Assembly: GCF_038622445.1 (NCBI RefSeq)
Contig: NZ_CP152019.1
Coordinates: 2,826,501 to 2,890,500 of the forward strand
DNA from: Sporosarcina sp. FSL K6-1522
Lineage (GTDB): Bacteria; Bacillota; Bacilli; Bacillales_A; Planococcaceae
Direction: 5' to 3'
Length of the DNA: 64,000 nt
The translations under genes were made by a program, and so were the position numbers. Every line of letters begins with the position of its first letter. Position 1 is the first letter of the stretch. Below the pieces are notes generated by a model, which did no database searches, had not been told where the DNA came from, and worked only from the letters and a program-made list of their open reading frames with translations. Below, in pieces: positions 36,057-47,033 of this stretch.

Positions 36057-39000
36057 TTAATTATTTTGCTCAAGGCATTGATAAACTGCCATCATATCGC
36101 GTTTATTTAGCTCACGAATACGATTGAAGATGGATATATCAGCAACTGTCTCCGTGTATAGGGTCTCAACGACAACATCACTTACTTTACCAGTGAGCCA
36201 TGTTTCTACTGATATGCCTTCAATAACTTCCTGAAGTCCTTCCTCATTGATACCACTTGCATTGCAACTCACACAAGGGATTGTTAATTTCAAGACACCG
36301 TCATGTAGATTATCTTCCGTAATGACTTTCTTGCCTTTACAGAATGGACATGGATGACTTTTTTTCACTTTATTAATTTGGGTAATAATTTTTTTATAGC
36401 CAAAAGCTTCATAAACATACGTTAGTTTTTTGTATTTGCCATTGGTGAAATACTGATCAATGATCGTTTCCCTTGTTTCAGTGATTTTGTCAAAATCACA
36501 GATGGTAACCTGGTTATTCGCGCTAATGGATTCCATATTGCTGCTAATTGCGTCCCAGAATGGTAAAGCATTTTGTAGCACCATTTCATAACCAACAAAG
36601 CTTGCTTGCTCTAATTCAAACATTTTCAGTGCGACTTGTGTTGTTCTAGGTAGTAAAGAGACATCTTCTGTTAATATCATATCGCCGCCTACAATCGATT
36701 TCAGTTTGACGAGTGCAGGTATATCACCTACTGTGTTCAATACTTGGTCAATTGGCTGATTGATGATATCACGAATATCTGTGTCGCCAAATTTCAGCCG
36801 TTTATGGTGGTTTAACACAGTCCCTTCACAAACTGGGCACGTCATCATCTCTTTAGAAGCTTTTATTTGCTCTTTAATCGCTGATTTCGAGACGAATATA
36901 TACATACCGACGATGGTATTAAAACCGACCCATGTTCGACGCGCCTTACTTTTTTTATCATAAAATGACTGGTCAAAATAGCCGTACCAAAATGTATGCT
37001 TTTCTTCATCAGACATGTCATTATAGCTTTTCGTCAAGTCATGCCCAAGCTCATTTTTAATTTCTTCAAATAGAAATTCTAACTTGGCATATTGATAAAA
37101 TTTTAATACGTCCATTACGTCTGGATGGAATAGGCCATCCCAAAACGGCAGATTTTTGTCTTGAATGACAACCTCTTTATCAAATATTTCGATTGCTAGA
37201 CGTCCTGCGCATGATGGACAATGATTGTCCTTCGAATAGAAATCAAAGCTTTTTGTATCTTTATTGGTCGGATGCGCCGCCACGAGATGATTGATAAGGC
37301 CGCCCATTTCATAAAGAAAACTATATTGGCTATACAAGTGCCTTTCAAGATCAATGGCAACGACGGGGGCAATGGTATCAGATTCGTATTCTCCATAAAT
37401 CAAACGGGCCATTGAGGATAAGCTTTTTAAGATGCCACCCTTATAAATGTTTTCTGCATTCTTAAAGTAATCGATATGATTTTCTTGTAAGTAATGAATG
37501 CCATTTTGCTGCTTAAGTGTGGACGAAATAGGCAATGGCAGCGCGAGTACTTCCTCATTTCTAGCCTCATAATAGTCATGATGGCTGACAACATCGAGAT
37601 GTGTGACAGGTTCATTCTTTCTTTTACCAAAATCAATAATGAAATCTGAGCTTTCCATCATGTAGGCGTTATGTTCAATCATTATGATTGAAACAGATGC
37701 ATCTTGTAGAATACCCCTTATGCTATCAATAAATTGATTTAAAATGTTTTGCGATAAACCTTTTGATGGTTCGTCAAAAATGAATAGTGTATGAGGTTTT
37801 CTTGAATTCGTGAACAGTTCAGAGACTAAATGCACACATTGAAATTCACCTGTCGATAATGTCTGCGTTTTTCTATTTAACGTTAAATAACCGAGTCCCA
37901 GTTTGATCAATAAGCTCAAGCGCTTATAAGCGATATCTTCATTGGGCAGTTCATCAATAATATCCTCAATCGAGCGCTCGAAAACATCATCAATCTCTTC
38001 ACTGTATTTGTTGAGACTCCTTTTAATATCAAGAAACGTTGCAACGGTTGAGCGGCTCGTAATCGATTGGTTTCGGTCCTGCCCTACCATAACGAGTTTA
38101 TCTTTTGGATAACGCTTCAGAAAATCGTCGGCAATACACATATTAACAAGCGTAGATTTACCACACCCAGACTCTCCCGTGACAGTGACGAGTCTGTTTT
38201 TAGGAATTATTATTTCAGCCATTTGGATCGTACGGCAATAGAGATCATGAAATTGATAGTAGTCTGTTGGTGTTTCCTCATTCCGTTCCAAGTATACAGG
38301 TTGTGGACGTGGCGATTCATCTACAATTTTCCCACCATATTTCCCGCTACCTGGTCCAAAAAATACTTGCTCATCCGTTAAATCCAGCACCGTGTCAGAA
38401 TGATCGATGAGCCAAATTTGATTTTTATAGCCCAATTGTTTAATTTCTTCTAAGATTTTTAAGAGGGTTTGGTGATCAAGCCCCACGGAGATTTCATCGA
38501 TGATAATTACTGTGTTTTCACTTGTTGCCATGAATTCTGCCAAGTACAGTCGTGTTAGTTCTCCACCTGATAATGTACCCATAATGCGATTTAATGTTAA
38601 GTAACCAACATTCATATTGATGATATTTTGGAGAATCTGTTGTTTTCCTTCACTAATATGTAAAACTTCTGCAAGTGAAAGAATCGATTCAATGCTCAAA
38701 TTGTTAATATCGGAAATTGTATGTGGTTGATCCCATAATTCCATTGTATATTGCTCAATTTCTGGATTATAGCGTTTACCCCCACACTTTTTACACTCCA
38801 CATTTTTGGTCGTACCGCGTCCTTTACAACCTGAACACCAGCCTAATTCATTATTAAATGAAAACGATTCTGGCGAGAGATGGAATTTCTCGGCAAGACA
38901 AATACGAATATCTGTAAAGACGCCTGTGTGTGTGCCAATTGTTGAACGCGGATTGGAGGAGATAGATGATCTTCCTAGAAAAAGCACTAAAGGCATCTCT

Positions 39001-39227
39001 TCCATCTTGATAGCACTGAAATTCGTTTCCATAATATTGGGGAATAAATACTGATATTCAGCCTTTGGCAATAAGGAAACGAGACGCTTTTTAGATTCTT
39101 CACCAATCGTCTGACAAAAAGTTGTTTTACCAGAACCAGACAAGCCCGCAATGCCTAACGACTGATTTGCTGGTAGTGCAGCATCTAATTTGTTAATATT
39201 GTTCGCAATTAATTGATTGATTTTCAT
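36057..39227 (-). CDS. UvrA-like ABC ATPase with relocated zinc modules
   Basis: 1056 residues from ATG 39227 behind AAAGGAT. ATPase 1: GLSGSGKTTFCQ (about 28-39), an internal zinc module (CSGCKGRG..CKKCGGKRY), signature TLSGGELTRLYLAE and VIIIDEISVGLD. ATPase 2: TGESGCGKSTLVN (about 352), signature TLSTGEFQCVHL and FIFDEPSKGLS. From about 545 a 500-residue tail follows with CPSCAGR, CPVCEG, CPFCKGK and CVSC. Tail segments such as MSDEEKHTFWYGY and TCPVCEGTVLNHHKRLKF resemble the UvrA insert that normally sits within ATPase 1. UvrA recognises DNA damage; relatives give drug resistance. Housekeeping uvrA is unlikely. Role unknown. Confidence 0.75.
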   Translation of the reverse strand: MKINQLIANNINKLDAALPANQSLGIAGLSGSGKTTFCQTIGEESKKRLVSLLPKAEYQYLFPNIMETNFSAIKMEEMPLVLFLGRSSISSNPRSTIGTHTGVFTDIRICLAEKFHLSPESFSFNNELGWCSGCKGRGTTKNVECKKCGGKRYNPEIEQYTMELWDQPHTISDINNLSIESILSLAEVLHISEGKQQILQNIINMNVGYLTLNRIMGTLSGGELTRLYLAEFMATSENTVIIIDEISVGLDHQTLLKILEEIKQLGYKNQIWLIDHSDTVLDLTDEQVFFGPGSGKYGGKIVDESPRPQPVYLERNEETPTDYYQFHDLYCRTIQMAEIIIPKNRLVTVTGESGCGKSTLVNMCIADDFLKRYPKDKLVMVGQDRNQSITSRSTVATFLDIKRSLNKYSEEIDDVFERSIEDIIDELPNEDIAYKRLSLLIKLGLGYLTLNRKTQTLSTGEFQCVHLVSELFTNSRKPHTLFIFDEPSKGLSQNILNQFIDSIRGILQDASVSIIMIEHNAYMMESSDFIIDFGKRKNEPVTHLDVVSHHDYYEARNEEVLALPLPISSTLKQQNGIHYLQENHIDYFKNAENIYKGGILKSLSSMARLIYGEYESDTIAPVVAIDLERHLYSQYSFLYEMGGLINHLVAAHPTNKDTKSFDFYSKDNHCPSCAGRLAIEIFDKEVVIQDKNLPFWDGLFHPDVMDVLKFYQYAKLEFLFEEIKNELGHDLTKSYNDMSDEEKHTFWYGYFDQSFYDKKSKARRTWVGFNTIVGMYIFVSKSAIKEQIKASKEMMTCPVCEGTVLNHHKRLKFGDTDIRDIINQPIDQVLNTVGDIPALVKLKSIVGGDMILTEDVSLLPRTTQVALKMFELEQASFVGYEMVLQNALPFWDAISSNMESISANNQVTICDFDKITETRETIIDQYFTNGKYKKLTYVYEAFGYKKIITQINKVKKSHPCPFCKGKKVITEDNLHDGVLKLTIPCVSCNASGINEEGLQEVIEGISVETWLTGKVSDVVVETLYTETVADISIFNRIRELNKRDMMAVYQCLEQNN

Positions 39228-39500
39228 TGTGATATCCTTTCTCTTTTCTCTATTTAGAATCGCCATGTTTAATAAAGATAAAAATGACGCTTCCCATGTT
39301 TCAGAAAAGCGCCCGATGATAAGAAATCCGTTTGAAGATAACCCTTATCATTATACCACACGTACGTTCTTTAATTCCTATTTACTAAAAAATTATTTCG
39401 ATACGGTAAATCGCAACCTCCACAATTCCCTGATTAAAAACCCATCTATTCACCAACACTATAGAGGACAAATCTATTACACTTGAAAGGGGTCCTCTAC

Positions 39501-39916: not shown

Positions 39917-40411
39917 CTAAAGGGGCGAAGTCTGATCTTTTTTCATCCGCAAAACACTTTTTACAGCGTCTTTTATTTCCTGATAGCCTGTACATCTACA
40001 GAGATTCGATGCAAGCCATTCATCGATAAGCGCAGCATCGGCATCCGGGTGTTGTTCAACAAGTGCATGACAGTTGGTGATAAACCCAGATGTACAATAA
40101 CCGCATTGTATCGCCCAGTTATCTACGAAAGCCTGTTGCAACGGTGAATCCAGTAGTCCTTCATTCGTTGTAATCGACTGATGGACCGTTTCAATCGTTA
40201 AAGACAAACACGAGTGCATGGGTTGACCGTCAATGATGACTGTACAAGCCCCGCAATCGCCATTTTCACATGCTGGTTTTGCGGCGGTTAGCCCGAGTTG
40301 TTCGCGCAGTGTATGCAACAATGTATCAGCGGATCGGATAGTCGCATCGTGCGTTTTGCCATTGACATGAAGTTGGACCAGTTTTTTCGATTTGTCGTTC
40401 GACATAATCAT
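39917..40411 (-). CDS. molybdenum hydroxylase [2Fe-2S] subunit
   Basis: 164 residues. Plant-type ferredoxin cluster cysteines in CENGDCGACT and MHSC (about 48-68) and the second cluster in IQCGYCTSGF and LCRCTGY (about 105-145), as in the small subunits of xanthine dehydrogenase (B. subtilis PucE) and CO dehydrogenase. It passes electrons from the Mo centre to FAD. Start overlaps the FAD-subunit stop by 4 bp; last gene of the XDH operon. Confidence 0.92.
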   Translation of the reverse strand: MIMSNDKSKKLVQLHVNGKTHDATIRSADTLLHTLREQLGLTAAKPACENGDCGACTVIIDGQPMHSCLSLTIETVHQSITTNEGLLDSPLQQAFVDNWAIQCGYCTSGFITNCHALVEQHPDADAALIDEWLASNLCRCTGYQEIKDAVKSVLRMKKDQTSPL

Positions 40412-41238
40412 ATAGTTCCCTCCAAGGCTTCGAGTGTGTCAGTTAACACATTTTTCAAAACAAATTTGCGGTATTCTGCTGACGCATGAATATCTTGGAC
40501 AACTGGTGCCGGGAGATGATGAATGACCTGCTCGATTCTCTCTTCCTTTGCCGTGGAAACATCATTTAGTATCTTTTCGATTGCATCCAATCTAAATGGA
40601 AATTCGCACACCCCACTAAAAGCAGTTCGAATATGCTGATCTTTTACCAATGCCGCCACCGTAACAATCGGGTATCCGATTGTTGAGATTCTCGTTCGCT
40701 TGATACTACTGAATGGCAAGTTGACATAGGAGTGGTCGACATGGATTTGGACAAGAAACTCGCCCTCACCTAGTCCCTCGTTCAGAAGCTGTTTTAATGG
40801 AAGAACCCTCTCTTTTTCCTTCCCCGCAATTTTCGCATGTGCATCGGCTAATAAAAAAGGTAAAATCCCTTCCCGATACATGAAATGACTATTGAGATTA
40901 CCACCAATTGTGATTTTATTGCGGGACGTATGATCCGCTATTCGTTTAACCGTCTCGCTCAATAATGGGAATAGCTTTGATTCCACAATAGTCGTTAGTG
41001 TAACGGCTGCTCCAATAATCAGCTCATCTCCGACAATCTTCAACGCTGTACATTCAGGAATTCCTTTTATATCAATTACCACATCGGCTGTCTTTTTATT
41101 TGTCCGAGCAAATGTAATAAATTCCGTACCACCCGAATAAAAAATCGCTTGTTTTCCAGATTGATATGCCGGCTGATACGTGTCAACTGCTTCACGAATT
41201 GTAGAAGGCTTATAATACTCAAAGTCGAACGCAATCAT
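40408..41238 (-). CDS. molybdenum hydroxylase FAD-binding subunit
   Basis: 276 residues from ATG 41238 behind AAGGAGTG, overlapping the large-subunit stop by 4 bp. FAD-binding PCMH fold with YSGGTEFITF (about 33) and TSRNKITIGGNLNS (about 103), then the CO dehydrogenase flavoprotein C-terminal domain. Equivalent to PucC. It returns electrons to the external acceptor. Confidence 0.9.
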   Translation of the reverse strand: MIAFDFEYYKPSTIREAVDTYQPAYQSGKQAIFYSGGTEFITFARTNKKTADVVIDIKGIPECTALKIVGDELIIGAAVTLTTIVESKLFPLLSETVKRIADHTSRNKITIGGNLNSHFMYREGILPFLLADAHAKIAGKEKERVLPLKQLLNEGLGEGEFLVQIHVDHSYVNLPFSSIKRTRISTIGYPIVTVAALVKDQHIRTAFSGVCEFPFRLDAIEKILNDVSTAKEERIEQVIHHLPAPVVQDIHASAEYRKFVLKNVLTDTLEALEGTI

Positions 41239-43556
41239 TTGCCGCACTCCTTCTTCGTTTGCCATATAAATTCTGGTGTGAGGGGCAAATGGTTTAGTTC
41301 CACTTGTGCTGCCCTCGATAATCCATTCGCAAGTGCCGCCCCAACACCAATCACACCATATTCCCCAATGCCACGCGCTCCATAAGGTCCATCGACGGCT
41401 GGTGTTTCAACAAAATCAACGAGATACTCTATAGGCTGTTCGCCAAACCGTAGCATTTGATAATTTCTTAAATCGGCATTTTGCACAATGCCCTTTACAT
41501 CAAATATAAACGTTTCACTACTAGCTAAACTCAAGCCCATGTACATCCCCCCACGCATTTGCTGGGTGGCTGTTGTCGGGTTTATAATCGTGCCTCCATC
41601 TAGCACGGTAACTGCTTTCAATAGCTGATACGTACAATCTCTTTCGTTATACGCAATCTCGACTGCTTGCGCCCCAACAGACCACCAGGGCCCCGGGTTG
41701 CCGAATCCTGTTTCTTTATCCAACGGAGTCAAATGCCGCTGCGTATGTTTGCCGACACCGACAACTTGCCCACCAACGGTATGCCCATTTGGATAGGTGT
41801 AGCCTAAAGCAATAGCTTGAAGAGTGACTCCAAATTGTGGGTTCGCTTTGACAAAAGCACGGCCGTCTGCAACATCTATATCATCCTCTGCACATTGTAA
41901 GACAATAGCTGCTGTTTTCTTCAATTGACGGATGGCATCTTCCGCCGCAGCAAGCACCGCACGTCCCGCCAAAAAGGTTGTGCTACTTGCTACAGTACGC
42001 CATTGATGGGGATCGTATTGCGTATTCACTTCCATCTTGACATGGATATTCTTCATATCCATTTTCAACTTTTCCGCAACGATTTGCGCAAGCACCGTTT
42101 TGGCACCTTGACCTAGTTCAATTGCTGCGCAGTTGAGATTAAGAGAACCATCTGCTTCGAATGTAAGAATCGCGCCTGCTTGGGCATTTGTTGCTGTTGA
42201 TGATGTTTTCCAAAATAAACTGATCCCTTTATAGCTGCCTTCATCTGTATCCCATTCAATTAATTCTTGCGCCCTTGTAAGGCATTTTGCCGCATCGCCA
42301 ACTGTATTTGCGGTAAGAACCGTTTGGGTCGGTGTTGTGTCGCCGGGTTTAATGGCATTCATGAGCCGCAATTGGATGGGATCCATCTGTAACTGCTTGG
42401 CTAATTTGTCCATCGTTCTTTCAACGGCAAACGTCAGCTCTGGATGGCCATAGCCCCTTAGTGACGTCGCATACGGATGATTGGTGTACATGCAATACGC
42501 ATCGCACCAGACATTTGGTACATTATAGGGACCCGTGCAATCGACCGCCATCGCCCTTGTAATCCCAGCAGCTTGATCCGTATACGCCCCAGAGTCAACA
42601 AGGAACGTATATTGACCCGCAAGTAATTTACCCTCTTTCGTCACCCCGAGTTTAATGGTGGCATCGAGCCCAATATGACAAGGTGCAGTAATCAAATCTT
42701 CTTCACGCTCATACTGTAATTTCACCTTTTTTCCACCGACTGCTTTCGAGGCTAAATAGGCAAGCGGCTCTAACTGAACTGTTCCTTTCCCGCCAAATGC
42801 ACCACCAACAATGGGCACATGCACAATGATATTACCCACTTCAATATTGAAGAACTGATTCAATACTTTTTTGATAGTGTAAGGAGATTGCGTGCAGGAA
42901 TGGACGGTTACTTTGCCAGCAGAATTGATTTCCACCTGCGTGCTCCGAGTTTCTAATGCCGCATGATCTGACAGATTGAAAGCATATGTTGCGGTTATTG
43001 TTTCTGCACAGCTTGCCCAGACCTTGGCAAAATCTCCTTTTCGAATTTTATTATGACTACCGATATTCGTCCCGGGTACAGGATAGACGTCTGTAATAAT
43101 TTTCGTATAGTCACCCGAATTGTCATGGACTAACGGCGCATCTGTTTGAAAAGCCTGTTGAACAGAATTCACAACAGGTAACGATTCATACATAACTTTT
43201 ACTTTACTGGCGGCAAGTTTACCTTGGTGTCCATGATCTGCTACGACAATAGCGATAGGTTCTCCGAAATAACGCACCTTTTTAAATGCTAGAGGCGGTC
43301 TGTCGGCAAGAAGCGGGCCAATATGAAAAGGGAAAACATCTCCAGTGATAATTGCGCGCACACCAGGTACTTTCCAAGCCTCTGAGGTGTCGACAGATGT
43401 AATGTTGGCATGTGCCTCTGTACTCGTTACAAGTTTGGCGTGTAGGATGCCGGTACCGACTAAATCGCCAACATATTTGACATTCCCCGTCGCCTTGTCA
43501 AGTGTATCAATCCGCGTAACACGCTGGCCAACAGTTGTTCGTGTTGTATGATCCAT
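41235..43556 (-). CDS. xanthine dehydrogenase-family molybdopterin subunit
   Basis: 773 residues. ATG 43556 lies nine bases after AGGAGGT; an earlier ATG is out of frame. N-terminal Ald_Xan domain (GILHAKLVTSTEAHANITSVD), Mo-cofactor motifs GGAFGGKG (about 251-258), SLRGYGHPEL, the substrate-side IELGQGAKT, and GARGIGEYG near residue 735 with the general-base Glu. Homologous to PucD. The SLRGYG loop differs from the selenium-free CO dehydrogenase site, so xanthine or another purine/N-heterocycle is the likely substrate; not provable here. Confidence 0.9.
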   Translation of the reverse strand: MDHTTRTTVGQRVTRIDTLDKATGNVKYVGDLVGTGILHAKLVTSTEAHANITSVDTSEAWKVPGVRAIITGDVFPFHIGPLLADRPPLAFKKVRYFGEPIAIVVADHGHQGKLAASKVKVMYESLPVVNSVQQAFQTDAPLVHDNSGDYTKIITDVYPVPGTNIGSHNKIRKGDFAKVWASCAETITATYAFNLSDHAALETRSTQVEINSAGKVTVHSCTQSPYTIKKVLNQFFNIEVGNIIVHVPIVGGAFGGKGTVQLEPLAYLASKAVGGKKVKLQYEREEDLITAPCHIGLDATIKLGVTKEGKLLAGQYTFLVDSGAYTDQAAGITRAMAVDCTGPYNVPNVWCDAYCMYTNHPYATSLRGYGHPELTFAVERTMDKLAKQLQMDPIQLRLMNAIKPGDTTPTQTVLTANTVGDAAKCLTRAQELIEWDTDEGSYKGISLFWKTSSTATNAQAGAILTFEADGSLNLNCAAIELGQGAKTVLAQIVAEKLKMDMKNIHVKMEVNTQYDPHQWRTVASSTTFLAGRAVLAAAEDAIRQLKKTAAIVLQCAEDDIDVADGRAFVKANPQFGVTLQAIALGYTYPNGHTVGGQVVGVGKHTQRHLTPLDKETGFGNPGPWWSVGAQAVEIAYNERDCTYQLLKAVTVLDGGTIINPTTATQQMRGGMYMGLSLASSETFIFDVKGIVQNADLRNYQMLRFGEQPIEYLVDFVETPAVDGPYGARGIGEYGVIGVGAALANGLSRAAQVELNHLPLTPEFIWQTKKECGK

Positions 43557-43575
43557 TCATGAACACCTCCTATTT

Positions 43576-43818
43576 TTAACGTGCCACAATAATCATCGTC
43601 TCTTCTTCTACTTCATGTGCGGCAGCATCCATAATCTTTTCTAACGTTAAACTCATTTTCTGCAAGTGTTTGATATCCTCTACTATAAAAACAGGTGCGC
43701 CGCCACTTTGAATAGTTTCCGGCTTGACCGTAATAACAGCCACAATTTCGGCATGCTGATTGCCCAATACATATCCATCCTTCCATTGTTGGTCAATGAT
43801 GAGAGATTGAAATGCCAT
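43576..43818 (-). CDS. capping-complex subunit for YIEGIA (small protein)
   Basis: 80 residues. The phrases GGAPVFIVEDIKHLQKMSLTLEKIMDAAAHEVEEETMIIVAR match my recollection of the small partner of YIEGIA proteins, which form a membrane-associated complex in spore-formers. It lies 20 bp upstream of the Mo subunit gene on the same strand, yet its presumed partner is 0.6 kb away beyond an oppositely oriented gene. The ribosome site (AAGG close to ATG) is weak. Confidence 0.6.
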   Translation of the reverse strand: MAFQSLIIDQQWKDGYVLGNQHAEIVAVITVKPETIQSGGAPVFIVEDIKHLQKMSLTLEKIMDAAAHEVEEETMIIVAR

Positions 43819-43988
43819 CCTTATTTATCACGCTAACTTCTTTATGACATTTCGAAAAGTGTAACCCAGAGTTTAACCAAGGCAGCAACAGATTATAATG
43901 AACACAATCATTTCAGCATGTTTACTCTCCCCTCTTTGACATTCACTACATAAAGTAGGATAAACAACAAACAGAAAGGAGAACGCTC

Positions 43989-44381
43989 ATGCATTATTTC
44001 CACCCTCTATGGATAGCTGGGGAAAGCTCATCTTCTGTACGTACGAATGCATCTGTTCAATCACAAACGAACTCAAGGTCGGAAAGTCCATTTCCTTCTG
44101 TAAATACGCAACAGCTCCATACATCTGCCGAGAAGATGCTAGACATTACAAAGCAGGCACAGTTCGTCATCAATCGAATTGTAGATTCGCAAAGTTTCGC
44201 GTATGAGTTGATGGATGCCTCCCAATTATCCAATCAAAAGAAAGTCGATGAATTAATTAAATCAACGGGGGTTACGAGTAAAGTGAAGACCAAATTTACG
44301 CCAAGCGGTATTCATATTGAATTTGATAATGCTGAAAAACTGGGTGATTGTTGTAAATTACAAATTTCCTTACGTTGGTAA
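43989..44381 (+). CDS. hypothetical protein, possibly spore-associated
   Basis: 130 residues, ATG behind AGGAGAACG. Polar, serine-rich N-terminus (about 10-45), then a helical pair (AEKMLDITKQAQFVINRIVDSQSFAYELMDA in two pieces) and a small C-terminal domain ending GIHIEFDNAEKLGDCCKLQISLRW with a CC pair. The tail resembles short Bacillales proteins of the coat or exosporium, but I cannot name it. Placed between the two YIEGIA-system genes on the opposite strand. Confidence 0.6.
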   Translation: MHYFHPLWIAGESSSSVRTNASVQSQTNSRSESPFPSVNTQQLHTSAEKMLDITKQAQFVINRIVDSQSFAYELMDASQLSNQKKVDELIKSTGVTSKVKTKFTPSGIHIEFDNAEKLGDCCKLQISLRW

Positions 44382-44397
44382 CGGATTTTCGACCCTG

Positions 44398-45273
44398 CTA
44401 TTTCCCTTTATCCGCTTCTTCAGGCAAGCGAATTGCGCTATCCAATACCGGTACTTTTTCTAATACTGCTTGGATTTGGGCAAAATCTTTTTCCCTAGGT
44501 AAAAAAAACAGCGCAATTCGGCCGTCTGCCATATCTCTTTTCGACAGAGGAATTAACGCTGGTTCACCGGAATCGAGATAACAGCCCAGAACTGTGGCAA
44601 CATGATGGAGCATCGCTTGCCGCTGCCCAAGATAGGATAATGTGACAATGCTGTTTTCATTTTTCGGAATGACAATGGCGCCAACTGCCTTTTCGGTAAT
44701 GATTTTTCTCGTATCCTCCAATCCGACGTTTTTAATCAGGATATCTCCTACAAAGAGTGTTGGTCCCTCAAAACGAATATCTGCTTCCGTGACATCAGCA
44801 ATTGCATGCAACAGCTTGCCTGACATCTTAAACTTCACAATGATAAGCATGACAATTCCCCCTATAACCCCTAGCCAAATAGAATAGACAGAACACAGAG
44901 TTGTCACCAATGCTGTAAACATCACTAAATAATTGCGACTTTCGAATGCTTGCGCCATCCCTTCAATAAATGGCGCTCCACGTTTCACAAGCTCGTTCGT
45001 ATCGATTTTTTCAAGGGAATCCCTTTCCATTTTCCTGATTTCGCGAAACTGTGTCGCGGCGAGTCCAAGAAAAGTCACTGCGGCCCAATCAGATTCTAAA
45101 ACGGAAGGAATGGCGACCGCGCCGATAAAAGCTGCAATGAACCCAAGAGAAAGATGAATAATTCGACCTGTCGGATACGTTGGGTATTGTCGAAAATCGG
45201 TACGTAACAATTGTGTTCGTGCCACAAAGCCAAAAATGATTCCCATTACGACGGGAAGTAAATAACTATCCAT
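44398..45273 (-). CDS. YIEGIA-family membrane protein
   Basis: 291 residues from ATG 45273 behind AAGGAG. The signature is APFIEGMAQAF (about 117-127), the counterpart of the YIEGIA motif. Three to four membrane segments in the first 170 residues, then a soluble C-terminal domain. Family members are restricted to endospore-formers and are thought to act in sporulation; mechanism unknown. It converges with the hypothetical gene on its left, with 16 bp between stops. Confidence 0.8.
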   Translation of the reverse strand: MDSYLLPVVMGIIFGFVARTQLLRTDFRQYPTYPTGRIIHLSLGFIAAFIGAVAIPSVLESDWAAVTFLGLAATQFREIRKMERDSLEKIDTNELVKRGAPFIEGMAQAFESRNYLVMFTALVTTLCSVYSIWLGVIGGIVMLIIVKFKMSGKLLHAIADVTEADIRFEGPTLFVGDILIKNVGLEDTRKIITEKAVGAIVIPKNENSIVTLSYLGQRQAMLHHVATVLGCYLDSGEPALIPLSKRDMADGRIALFFLPREKDFAQIQAVLEKVPVLDSAIRLPEEADKGK

Positions 45274-45420
45274 CACAACGACTCCTTCAAATATGTTCTA
45301 TCACCTCTTTCACATGTTAACCATCATGAGAGCTGATTATAATGACAGTCTTCATTTCACAAAACGAATAGAATAGCAAGCAAATGGTGAGAGTTGGAAC
45401 AATGAAATGGAGTGAAATAG

Positions 45421-46419
45421 TTGCAAACGATTCAACAAATGATTGAAACGATATTGAATGACAATCGACCAGTTGTCCTCGCGATGATTGTGCATGTGGA
45501 AGGTTCAGCTTATCGAAAAGAAGGATCCTGGATGATAATTCAAGAGGATGGAACACGGTTAGGGGTCATCAGTGGCGGCTGTCTTGAAAGCGATTTACAA
45601 ATGCGCTCACAAGAATTGTTCGAAACAGGCAAAGTAGAAATCGTTCAGTATGATTTAAGTGACATAGATGATGTCGGTTGGGGGCGTGGTGCAGGATGTA
45701 ATGGGATTGTTTCAGTACTAATACGGGACGTTGATCAAACATTTCGTTTTTTTCTTAACCAATTACACAAAAACTTACTGGTTAAAGAACCCATTGTATT
45801 CATCCAATCTATGAACGATTTTAACGACTATGGAGCTATCATGCAGGGAGGTAATCGCTATGGCAGCTTGGAAAATGAAGTACCAATTGCAATAGATGGA
45901 ACAGCCGCTTTTCAACAGCAAGCAGGGCAAAAAATCATCCATGATAAAAATATGTATGTGCAATTCATCTGGCCTAAACCAGTCCTTTATATCATTGGTG
46001 CCGGAGCGGATGCGCGGCCACTTGCACGTCTTGCCCAGGATGTCGGCTATTCAGTCCATTTGCTAGACTGGCGCCAATCATTGTGCAGCGAAGAGCATTT
46101 TCCAACGGCTGCGTCTATTCGTATTGGAGACATTGCGCAGGCAATCGATACAATTGCATTCAACGAGTTGGATGCCGTTGTCATTATGACGCATGATTTT
46201 CAAAAGGATTTACAAATCATGCAACGACTACGTACAATTCCCCTGCTGTATCTTGGGATTTTAGGATCAAAAAAAAGAACGGAACGATTACTTGGCGGAG
46301 AAATTCTCAAGGGGATGCATTCGCCTATTGGGTTGCCCATCGGAGCAGACGGACCTGAGGAAATTGCTATTAGTATTGTTGCGGAACTAATCGCTGTGAG
46401 ACGGGGGAAAATGCTATGA
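45421..46419 (+). CDS. XdhC/CoxI-family maturation factor
   Basis: 332 residues, TTG start behind GGAG. N-terminal XdhC_CoxI segment (VVLAMIVHVEGSAYRKEGSWMII and GVISGGCLESDL) and a C-terminal Rossmann domain (PVLYIIGAGADARPLARLAQDVGYSVHLLDWR; YLGILGSKKRTERLL). XdhC proteins bind molybdenum cofactor and insert its sulfurated form into xanthine dehydrogenase. Equivalent to PucA. It overlaps the MobA-like gene by 4 bp and serves the hydroxylase encoded on the other strand. Confidence 0.88.
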   Translation: MQTIQQMIETILNDNRPVVLAMIVHVEGSAYRKEGSWMIIQEDGTRLGVISGGCLESDLQMRSQELFETGKVEIVQYDLSDIDDVGWGRGAGCNGIVSVLIRDVDQTFRFFLNQLHKNLLVKEPIVFIQSMNDFNDYGAIMQGGNRYGSLENEVPIAIDGTAAFQQQAGQKIIHDKNMYVQFIWPKPVLYIIGAGADARPLARLAQDVGYSVHLLDWRQSLCSEEHFPTAASIRIGDIAQAIDTIAFNELDAVVIMTHDFQKDLQIMQRLRTIPLLYLGILGSKKRTERLLGGEILKGMHSPIGLPIGADGPEEIAISIVAELIAVRRGKML

Positions 46420-47033
46420 AAATCGCGGGGATTTATCTAGCTGCTGGCAATAGTAGCCGAATGGGAAGTCATAAGCTGAATCTACCTATTGGGACAATGA
46501 CATTGGGAAGTTTGGGCCTGGAAACAGCTATACAATCATCACTTGATACAATATATATTATTACGAAAGGGGTAGATGATTTAGCATGGCTACCAATTGA
46601 TATGAAGATGAACGCTAAGTGTACTATCTTACCTTGCTCCACCGCTTACAAAGGCCAGTCCGAATCATTAAAATGCGGCATTCAACAGGCACAAGCCGAT
46701 CATATGGAAGCCGTCATCGTCATGCTAGCAGACCAGCCTTTCATCACTAGCCAAATGCTTGAAGAAATGATGACATGCATGAAGAGCAACCCGACATGCA
46801 CGTTTGTTGCGACATCAGTCGATAAGGTCACTATGCCGCCCGTTTTACTATCGTCCTCCATGTATGCAGACCTTCTTACCCTACAGGGAGATGTTGGAGC
46901 GAAAAGCCTTTTACAAGGGAAGTTTCTTCGCAAGGGAACAATCTTGCCCTGCGCCGATAAACGGCTAATTTTCGATATCGATACGCAAGAAGACTATCAG
47001 TCATTGCTCGCGTATCAAGAAGAAACGAACTGA
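46416..47033 (+). CDS. MobA-like molybdenum cofactor nucleotidyltransferase
   Basis: 205 residues. Nucleotide-binding start GIYLAAGNSSRMGSHKLNLP, metal site MLADQPFI (about 108) and the end RLIFDIDTQEDYQSL are those of the MobA/MocA family, which joins a nucleotide (usually CMP) to molybdopterin. Equivalent to PucB. ATGA overlap with the XdhC-like gene. Confidence 0.88.
   Translation: MKIAGIYLAAGNSSRMGSHKLNLPIGTMTLGSLGLETAIQSSLDTIYIITKGVDDLAWLPIDMKMNAKCTILPCSTAYKGQSESLKCGIQQAQADHMEAVIVMLADQPFITSQMLEEMMTCMKSNPTCTFVATSVDKVTMPPVLLSSSMYADLLTLQGDVGAKSLLQGKFLRKGTILPCADKRLIFDIDTQEDYQSLLAYQEETN

Follow-up and report, generated by a model that had tools for sequence, protein, structure and literature searches.

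Many Bacillales from soil have a mobile UvrA relative in which the ATPase and the DNA-reading parts are separated along the chain. The gene described here encodes a 1056-residue protein at positions 36057-39227 on the minus strand of the window, as we call the whole 64,000-nucleotide stretch of the Sporosarcina sp. FSL K6-1522 genome that was analysed, and it belongs to a conserved Bacillales family with 76-85% identity. The DNA-reading domains of UvrA are threaded through its ATPases, which hampers tests of the coupling between ATP hydrolysis and damage recognition. A motor and a DNA reader separated on one chain, both under strong selection, form a natural test object.

The reading frame starts with the ATG at 39227, ends with the stop codon at 36057-36059 and has the ribosome-binding site AGAAAGGA ahead of its ATG. 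An earlier note on this DNA had described the frame, its coordinates and its motifs, with both ATPase modules in the first ~545 residues and a ~510-residue tail free of Walker and signature motifs, and all of this was confirmed. The features of the gene are as follows.

36057 to 39227, minus strand: UvrA-like gene, 1056 aa (from full-length homologues and sequence)
38298 to 39227, minus strand: module 1 (residues 1-310), NBD-I-type ATPase, insertion domain missing
39120 to 39146, minus strand: Walker A 1, GLSGSGKTT (residue 28)
38784 to 38837, minus strand: compact zinc-2-type site C131/C134/C145/C148 of module 1
38559 to 38573, minus strand: signature 1, LSGGE (residue 219)
38493 to 38510, minus strand: Walker B 1, VIIIDE (Asp244-Glu245)
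37593 to 38270, minus strand: module 2 (residues 320-545), NBD-II-type ATPase, zinc-3 hairpin missing
38151 to 38177, minus strand: Walker A 2, GESGCGKST (residue 351)
37845 to 37859, minus strand: signature 2, changed to LSTGE (residue 457)
37770 to 37787, minus strand: Walker B 2, LFIFDE (Asp485-Glu486)
36060 to 37592, minus strand: tail (residues 546-1056), best read as two UvrA signature domains without ATP-binding domains
36603 to 37316, minus strand: signature-domain-I-like part (638-875)
36825 to 37196, minus strand: insertion (DNA-binding) domain, residues 678-801 (PF17755; HMM)
36060 to 36473, minus strand: signature-domain-II-like part (919-1056), from the predicted model and structural alignment

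Judged from sequence, residues 1-545 make up two complete UvrA-type ATPase modules, both of which gave strong matches to UvrA structures. Conservation was checked by aligning 42 relatives, whose identity to the query is 77-85%. None of them departs from the query at the two Walker A motifs, the two Walker B Asp-Glu pairs or the H-loop histidines H276 and H519. Signature 2, which the earlier note had rightly called changed, was S-x-G-E in all 42 relatives, with T (LSTGE) in 90% or more. With the Walker A, Walker B, H-loop and signature residues invariant, two complete ATPase sites are present. HMMs of the separate UvrA halves were used to assign the modules to NBD-I or NBD-II. The C-lobe of module 1 in the query scored 56.5 bits with NBD-I and 45.0 bits with NBD-II; six relatives pointed likewise, and NBD-I led by about 8-15 bits in this lobe, while the N-lobe was nearly tied. 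Module 2 was marginally closer to NBD-II, by a small margin. A circular permutation of the halves had first been suggested by the fact that both modules best match UvrA's C-terminal half; it was weakened by these half-specific HMMs, which favour the order NBD-I then NBD-II, with small margins for the N-lobe and module 2. The excisions were read from a joint alignment with ordinary UvrA and shorter UvrAs. In module 1, the CxxC pairs of zinc site 2 are 10 residues apart and the ~120-residue insertion domain is gone; the zinc-3 hairpin is absent from module 2.

The ~510-residue tail contains no Walker or signature motif and was matched by no ATPase profile. At the sequence level, its resemblance to UvrA exceeds chance, as hhalign aligned residues 594-876 with UvrA 210-484 (E 1.5e-16, probability 98.7). 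The tail motifs are FDFY..CPSC (661), MSDEEKHTFWYGY (738), TCPVCEG (796), CPFC (960) and CVSC (985), and all four CxxC pairs are invariant in the 42 relatives. PF17755 (Pfam UvrA_DNA-bind) was detected in the tail at 23.9 bits against a cut-off of 23.2 in the whole-genome scan, and at 19.1 bits, under the cut-off, in the single-protein scan. A UvrA insertion-domain HMM matched the family in the tail only, at residues 678-801 with 23-38 bits. Within the signature-domain-I-like part, a second zinc-2 site (C670/C673/C797/C800) flanks the insertion domain, and F661, F663, C670, C673, G675, G749, C797, C800, G802 and L805 are common to the tail and 29 UvrA fragments. These matches indicate that the tail bears UvrA's insertion domain together with its zinc-2 site. 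UvrA's zinc-1 cysteines are lost in the protein. In our reading of the alignment, LLPRTTQ, in the helix that ends the signature-domain-I-like part, would be a degenerate LSGGE.

The predicted model of residues 575-1056 had a pLDDT of 72.8, with 82-95 in the insertion domain and mostly 78-89 at 919-1056, dipping to about 50-60 at 965-984. UvrA rows in the modelling alignment guide the first half of the tail, where the independent evidence is the sequence profile; over 919-1056 the alignment held no UvrA rows. A Foldseek search with this model returned only UvrA chains down to E about 1 (best 3.4e-11), and the structural alignments ran in order from UvrA ~98, in signature domain I, to ~846, in signature domain II. 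The earlier note was right that UvrA insert material makes up the tail, in the order it has in UvrA. The Foldseek and VIA alignments gave rmsd values of 14-19 Å over the full tail and 3-4 Å over single domains, so the relative placement of the tail parts is not interpretable. A full-length model (pLDDT 58) was too poor and was dropped for domain packing. In residues 919-1056, C960/C963 and C985/C988 enclose a beta hairpin. Since the structural alignment reaches UvrA signature domain II, this CxxC-hairpin-CxxC element is most likely zinc site 3, for which the profile probability is a weak 15-30%, and a second, zinc-3-like signature domain most likely ends the tail in the predicted model.

The tail is therefore most readily understood as the pair of UvrA signature domains, stripped of the ATP-binding domains. 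Head and tail are complementary save for zinc-2, which is present in both. Because the head keeps what the tail lacks and vice versa, zinc-2 excepted, the architecture would be better explained by two UvrA copies that fused and then lost complementary parts than by the moving of one block. The ATPases would stem from one copy and the signature domains that contact DNA from the other. The earlier note had the zinc and insert modules moved to the C-terminus. The insertion domain does lie in the tail, but module 1 keeps its own zinc-2 site, so the ATPase half is not devoid of zinc modules; "moved" is also too simple, as zinc site 3 is missing from module 2 and both signature domains lie in the tail. 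The double-length UvrA model NF001885 (PRK00635, 1809 positions) likewise implies two UvrA copies in a single chain. Unlike that model, the present protein has 1056 residues (159.2 bits against a cut-off of 3054), its second copy lacks both ATP-binding domains, and its first lacks the insertion domain and zinc-3. In 399 Bacilli genomes and 398 genomes of the phylum, the family scored about 820-870 bits and ordinary UvrA at most 58 bits, with no intermediates found, and our literature searches found no paper describing this UvrA-like architecture.

Compared with canonical UvrA (TIGR00630), the protein is homologous throughout, with tail residues 594-876 corresponding to UvrA 210-484. It differs in having no UvrB-binding domain, in the displaced insertion domain and, by the model, zinc-3 hairpin, and in the LSTGE signature. 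The UvrA equivalog cut-offs were missed (TIGR00630, 260.6 against 729.8 bits; NF001503, 258.6 against 1147). The UvrB-binding domain PF17760 matched only the canonical UvrA of the genome, and a UvrB-end HMM gave no match in the UvrA-like protein. A canonical uvrB-uvrA pair was found elsewhere in the window genome, as the earlier note had wished to see checked. Ecm16, DrrC and their relatives, which protect antibiotic producers, offer a precedent: Ecm16 has no UvrB-binding domain (PMC10192343; PMC10413001), acts independently of UvrB and depends on its insertion domain to bind DNA (PMC10192343). The present protein resembles Ecm16, DrrC, MtrX and SgcB2 in its two UvrA-type ATPases, its insertion domain, the lack of a UvrB-binding domain, the presence of zinc sites 2 and 3 along the chain (zinc 3 here as predicted by the model) and an expected UvrB-independent role. 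In Ecm16, NBD-I harbours the insertion domain and NBD-II zinc site 3 (PMC10192343), in contrast to the present protein, where the insertion domain and the modelled zinc-3 hairpin lie outside the ATPase modules, in the C-terminal tail.

The lack of a UvrB-binding domain, the normal uvrB-uvrA pair and the Ecm16/DrrC precedent favour a UvrB-independent role. By analogy with Ecm16 and DrrC, we propose a UvrA-derived, UvrB-independent DNA-protection ATPase that would clear drug-bound or distorted DNA, a reading to which we give even weight for and against. The tail would read distorted DNA or DNA carrying a small molecule, and the head, by binding and hydrolysing ATP, would move the tail so that the ligand is cleared or the protein released, as proposed for Ecm16/DrrC. 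Alternatively, the protein might serve nucleotide excision repair as an auxiliary damage sensor, standing in for canonical UvrA in passing lesions to UvrB/UvrC. Its UvrA ancestry and intact ATPases agree with such a role, as does the alignment of residues 594-660 to the end of UvrA's UvrB-binding region; however, the missing UvrB-binding domain (PF17760, with the UvrB-end HMM silent), the lost zinc-1 cysteines, the complete uvrB-uvrA pair already in the genome and the patchy distribution of the gene make it improbable. A role distinct from excision repair, as the earlier note supposed, is likely.

Full-length relatives were found in Bacillaceae, Caryophanaceae/Planococcaceae, Paenibacillaceae, Listeriaceae and Thermoactinomycetaceae, and this survey of homologues, which the earlier note had proposed, found the same architecture conserved in the whole family. 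The distribution is patchy, with 10 of the 399 sampled Bacilli genomes containing the gene. Canonical UvrA served as the comparison for transfer: relative to the window genome it is 92% identical in G002 (same genus) and 70-71% in G038 and G319, whereas the UvrA-like protein is 83% identical in G002, 83% in G319 and 79% in G038. Identity of the UvrA-like protein hence does not track species distance, which argues for horizontal transfer. The Metabacillus and Shimazuella copies have a pS of only 0.37, one copy sits on a 1.4-Mb Niallia plasmid, and the tree requires 10 taxonomic-family changes against a minimum of 4, with few strong deep branches. Rough omega values of the closest pairs were 0.03-0.27 in every region, so the tail is a maintained part and not debris. 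These comparisons indicate that the gene is horizontally transferred and under purifying selection. Broken copies occur as well: the frame is interrupted in G023 (L012, G023:C1:1856033-1859194), and a decayed fragment with several stops lies in G404:C8.

Such a patchy and mobile gene could also encode an anti-phage or anti-plasmid defence protein whose UvrA-like modules sense foreign DNA, and the PADLOC profiles mad3 and mad8 do match modules 1-2 (E 3e-33 and 1e-18). Yet the best PADLOC stretches fall in the ATPase modules and none in the tail, cross-matches are expected among profiles of related ATPases, no conserved defence genes adjoin, and the protein has no nuclease or other effector domain; we consider a defence role very improbable. 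A phage or viral origin was also considered and rejected: a scan of viral contigs with two short patterns gave no relative, and a phage tblastn for the protein gave matches of only 22% identity, in unannotated records.

The gene neighbourhood suggests protection of DNA against toxic small molecules. Among 91 loci, in which some organisms were fetched twice, 34 have same-strand ArsR-family and AHSA1-family genes directly upstream. Identity among the AHSA1 partners ranges over 56-100%, and thus the linkage is old or repeatedly transferred; the pair corresponds to 13 changes on the tree. The AHSA1 partner matched AHSA1 PF08327 at 7e-22 and, weakly, CalU16 (PDB) at E 0.004. ArsR-COG3832 (AHA1) pairs are regarded as mobile modules, most plausibly for antibiotic resistance, and calicheamicin, a drug that cuts DNA, is neutralised by one member of the COG3832 family, CalC (PMC2701414). 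The loci resemble the ArsR-COG3832 (AHA1/AHSA1) modules (Makarova et al. 2009) in these 34 upstream pairs and differ from such two-gene modules in the third, UvrA-like gene that follows with its own promoter region. No other conserved neighbour emerged, the near and far sets being alike (glyoxalase-family 5 near against 6 far; MFS 5 against 4) save for AHSA1 (4 near, at most 2 far). No member inspected was recognised as lying inside a biosynthetic cluster.

Under the proposed DNA protection, the gene would move between genomes as a stress-response unit, in many cases together with an ArsR repressor and a CalC-related AHSA1 protein, the latter possibly sensing or binding compounds of the same type. 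The DNA- or drug-sensing machine of the earlier note is plausible, and the ArsR-AHSA1 linkage helps it, though, unlike the well-supported architecture, it would still be an inferred function. More specifically, a single-chain asymmetric UvrA "pseudo-dimer", one part pure motor and the other pure DNA reader, might form with ArsR and the CalC-related protein a mobile drug-freeing module of Bacillales; this we offer tentatively, as rather less likely than not. If the drug link is true, the family would represent a resistance-type gene that is widespread in Bacillales but has gone unrecognised, and it would mark DNA-targeting compounds in soil that are yet to be found. A general genome-maintenance or stress ATPase for distorted DNA, with ArsR-AHSA1 merely a frequent companion, would also fit the high conservation in all domains and the more than half of loci, the window's included, that have no such pair. 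Patchy, transferred genes with regulators are, however, more typical of conditional protection, and we regard the general role as rather unlikely, though less so than excision repair or phage defence.

The window gene itself has no adjoining pair, and the best AHSA1 match in its genome is 29%. Its leader has two features.

39286 to 39313, minus strand: terminator-type hairpin in the leader of the UvrA-like gene
39350 to 39358, minus strand: putative extended -10 promoter-like TGGTATAAT, upstream of the leader hairpin (from sequence)

The 27-nt form of the hairpin with its loop occurs once each in the window genome, G002 and G038, in all three cases upstream of the UvrA-like gene. In other loci it is the end of the AHSA1 gene. 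The locus has lost the pair or never had it; since the window leader retains this hairpin, the simplest explanation is that a common cassette was transferred and the pair then lost. With the extended -10 before it, the hairpin could be an attenuator in the window genome; inspection by eye revealed no attenuation leader peptide between promoter and hairpin. Both loop and stem of the hairpin, which is followed by a T-run, are conserved between Sporosarcina and Paenibacillus, and the hairpin is kept in four loci without the ArsR-AHSA1 pair (L001, L008, L049 and L050). Many loci (e.g. L036 and L065) share a conserved block, TTCATTTGAAGTT...CTAACATGGCAATACTA, in the ~70 bp upstream, which forms a TTCAnnTGAA inverted repeat overlapping a promoter-like -10. 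Its second part is kept within 3 mismatches in 46 of the 91 loci and in none of the shuffles. The inverted repeat is a possible operator.

Variants of the neighbourhood were also observed. In two Paenibacillus (L097:9239-10237 and L104), a different ArsR + AHSA1 pair, its ArsR about 32% identical, lies downstream and is possibly an independent association. ArsR and AHSA1 are fused into one ORF of 250-257 aa in L032, L044 and L085, from two Psychrobacillus and one Listeria newyorkensis. A ferredoxin-reductase-like oxidoreductase adjoins an ArsR-AHSA1 pair in G033 (L163:5040-6464), and one 76% identical to it lies directly upstream of the UvrA-like gene in Metabacillus (L031:4664-5371). As a conserved neighbour it was rejected, with just one family locus; its occurrence suggests exchange within one wider stress cassette. 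Directly beyond the UvrA-like gene, positions 39917-47033 of the window hold a molybdenum-hydroxylase gene set, read from translations only, with CoxS/CoxM/CoxL-like ORFs on the minus strand followed by XdhC-like and MobA-like ORFs on the plus strand.
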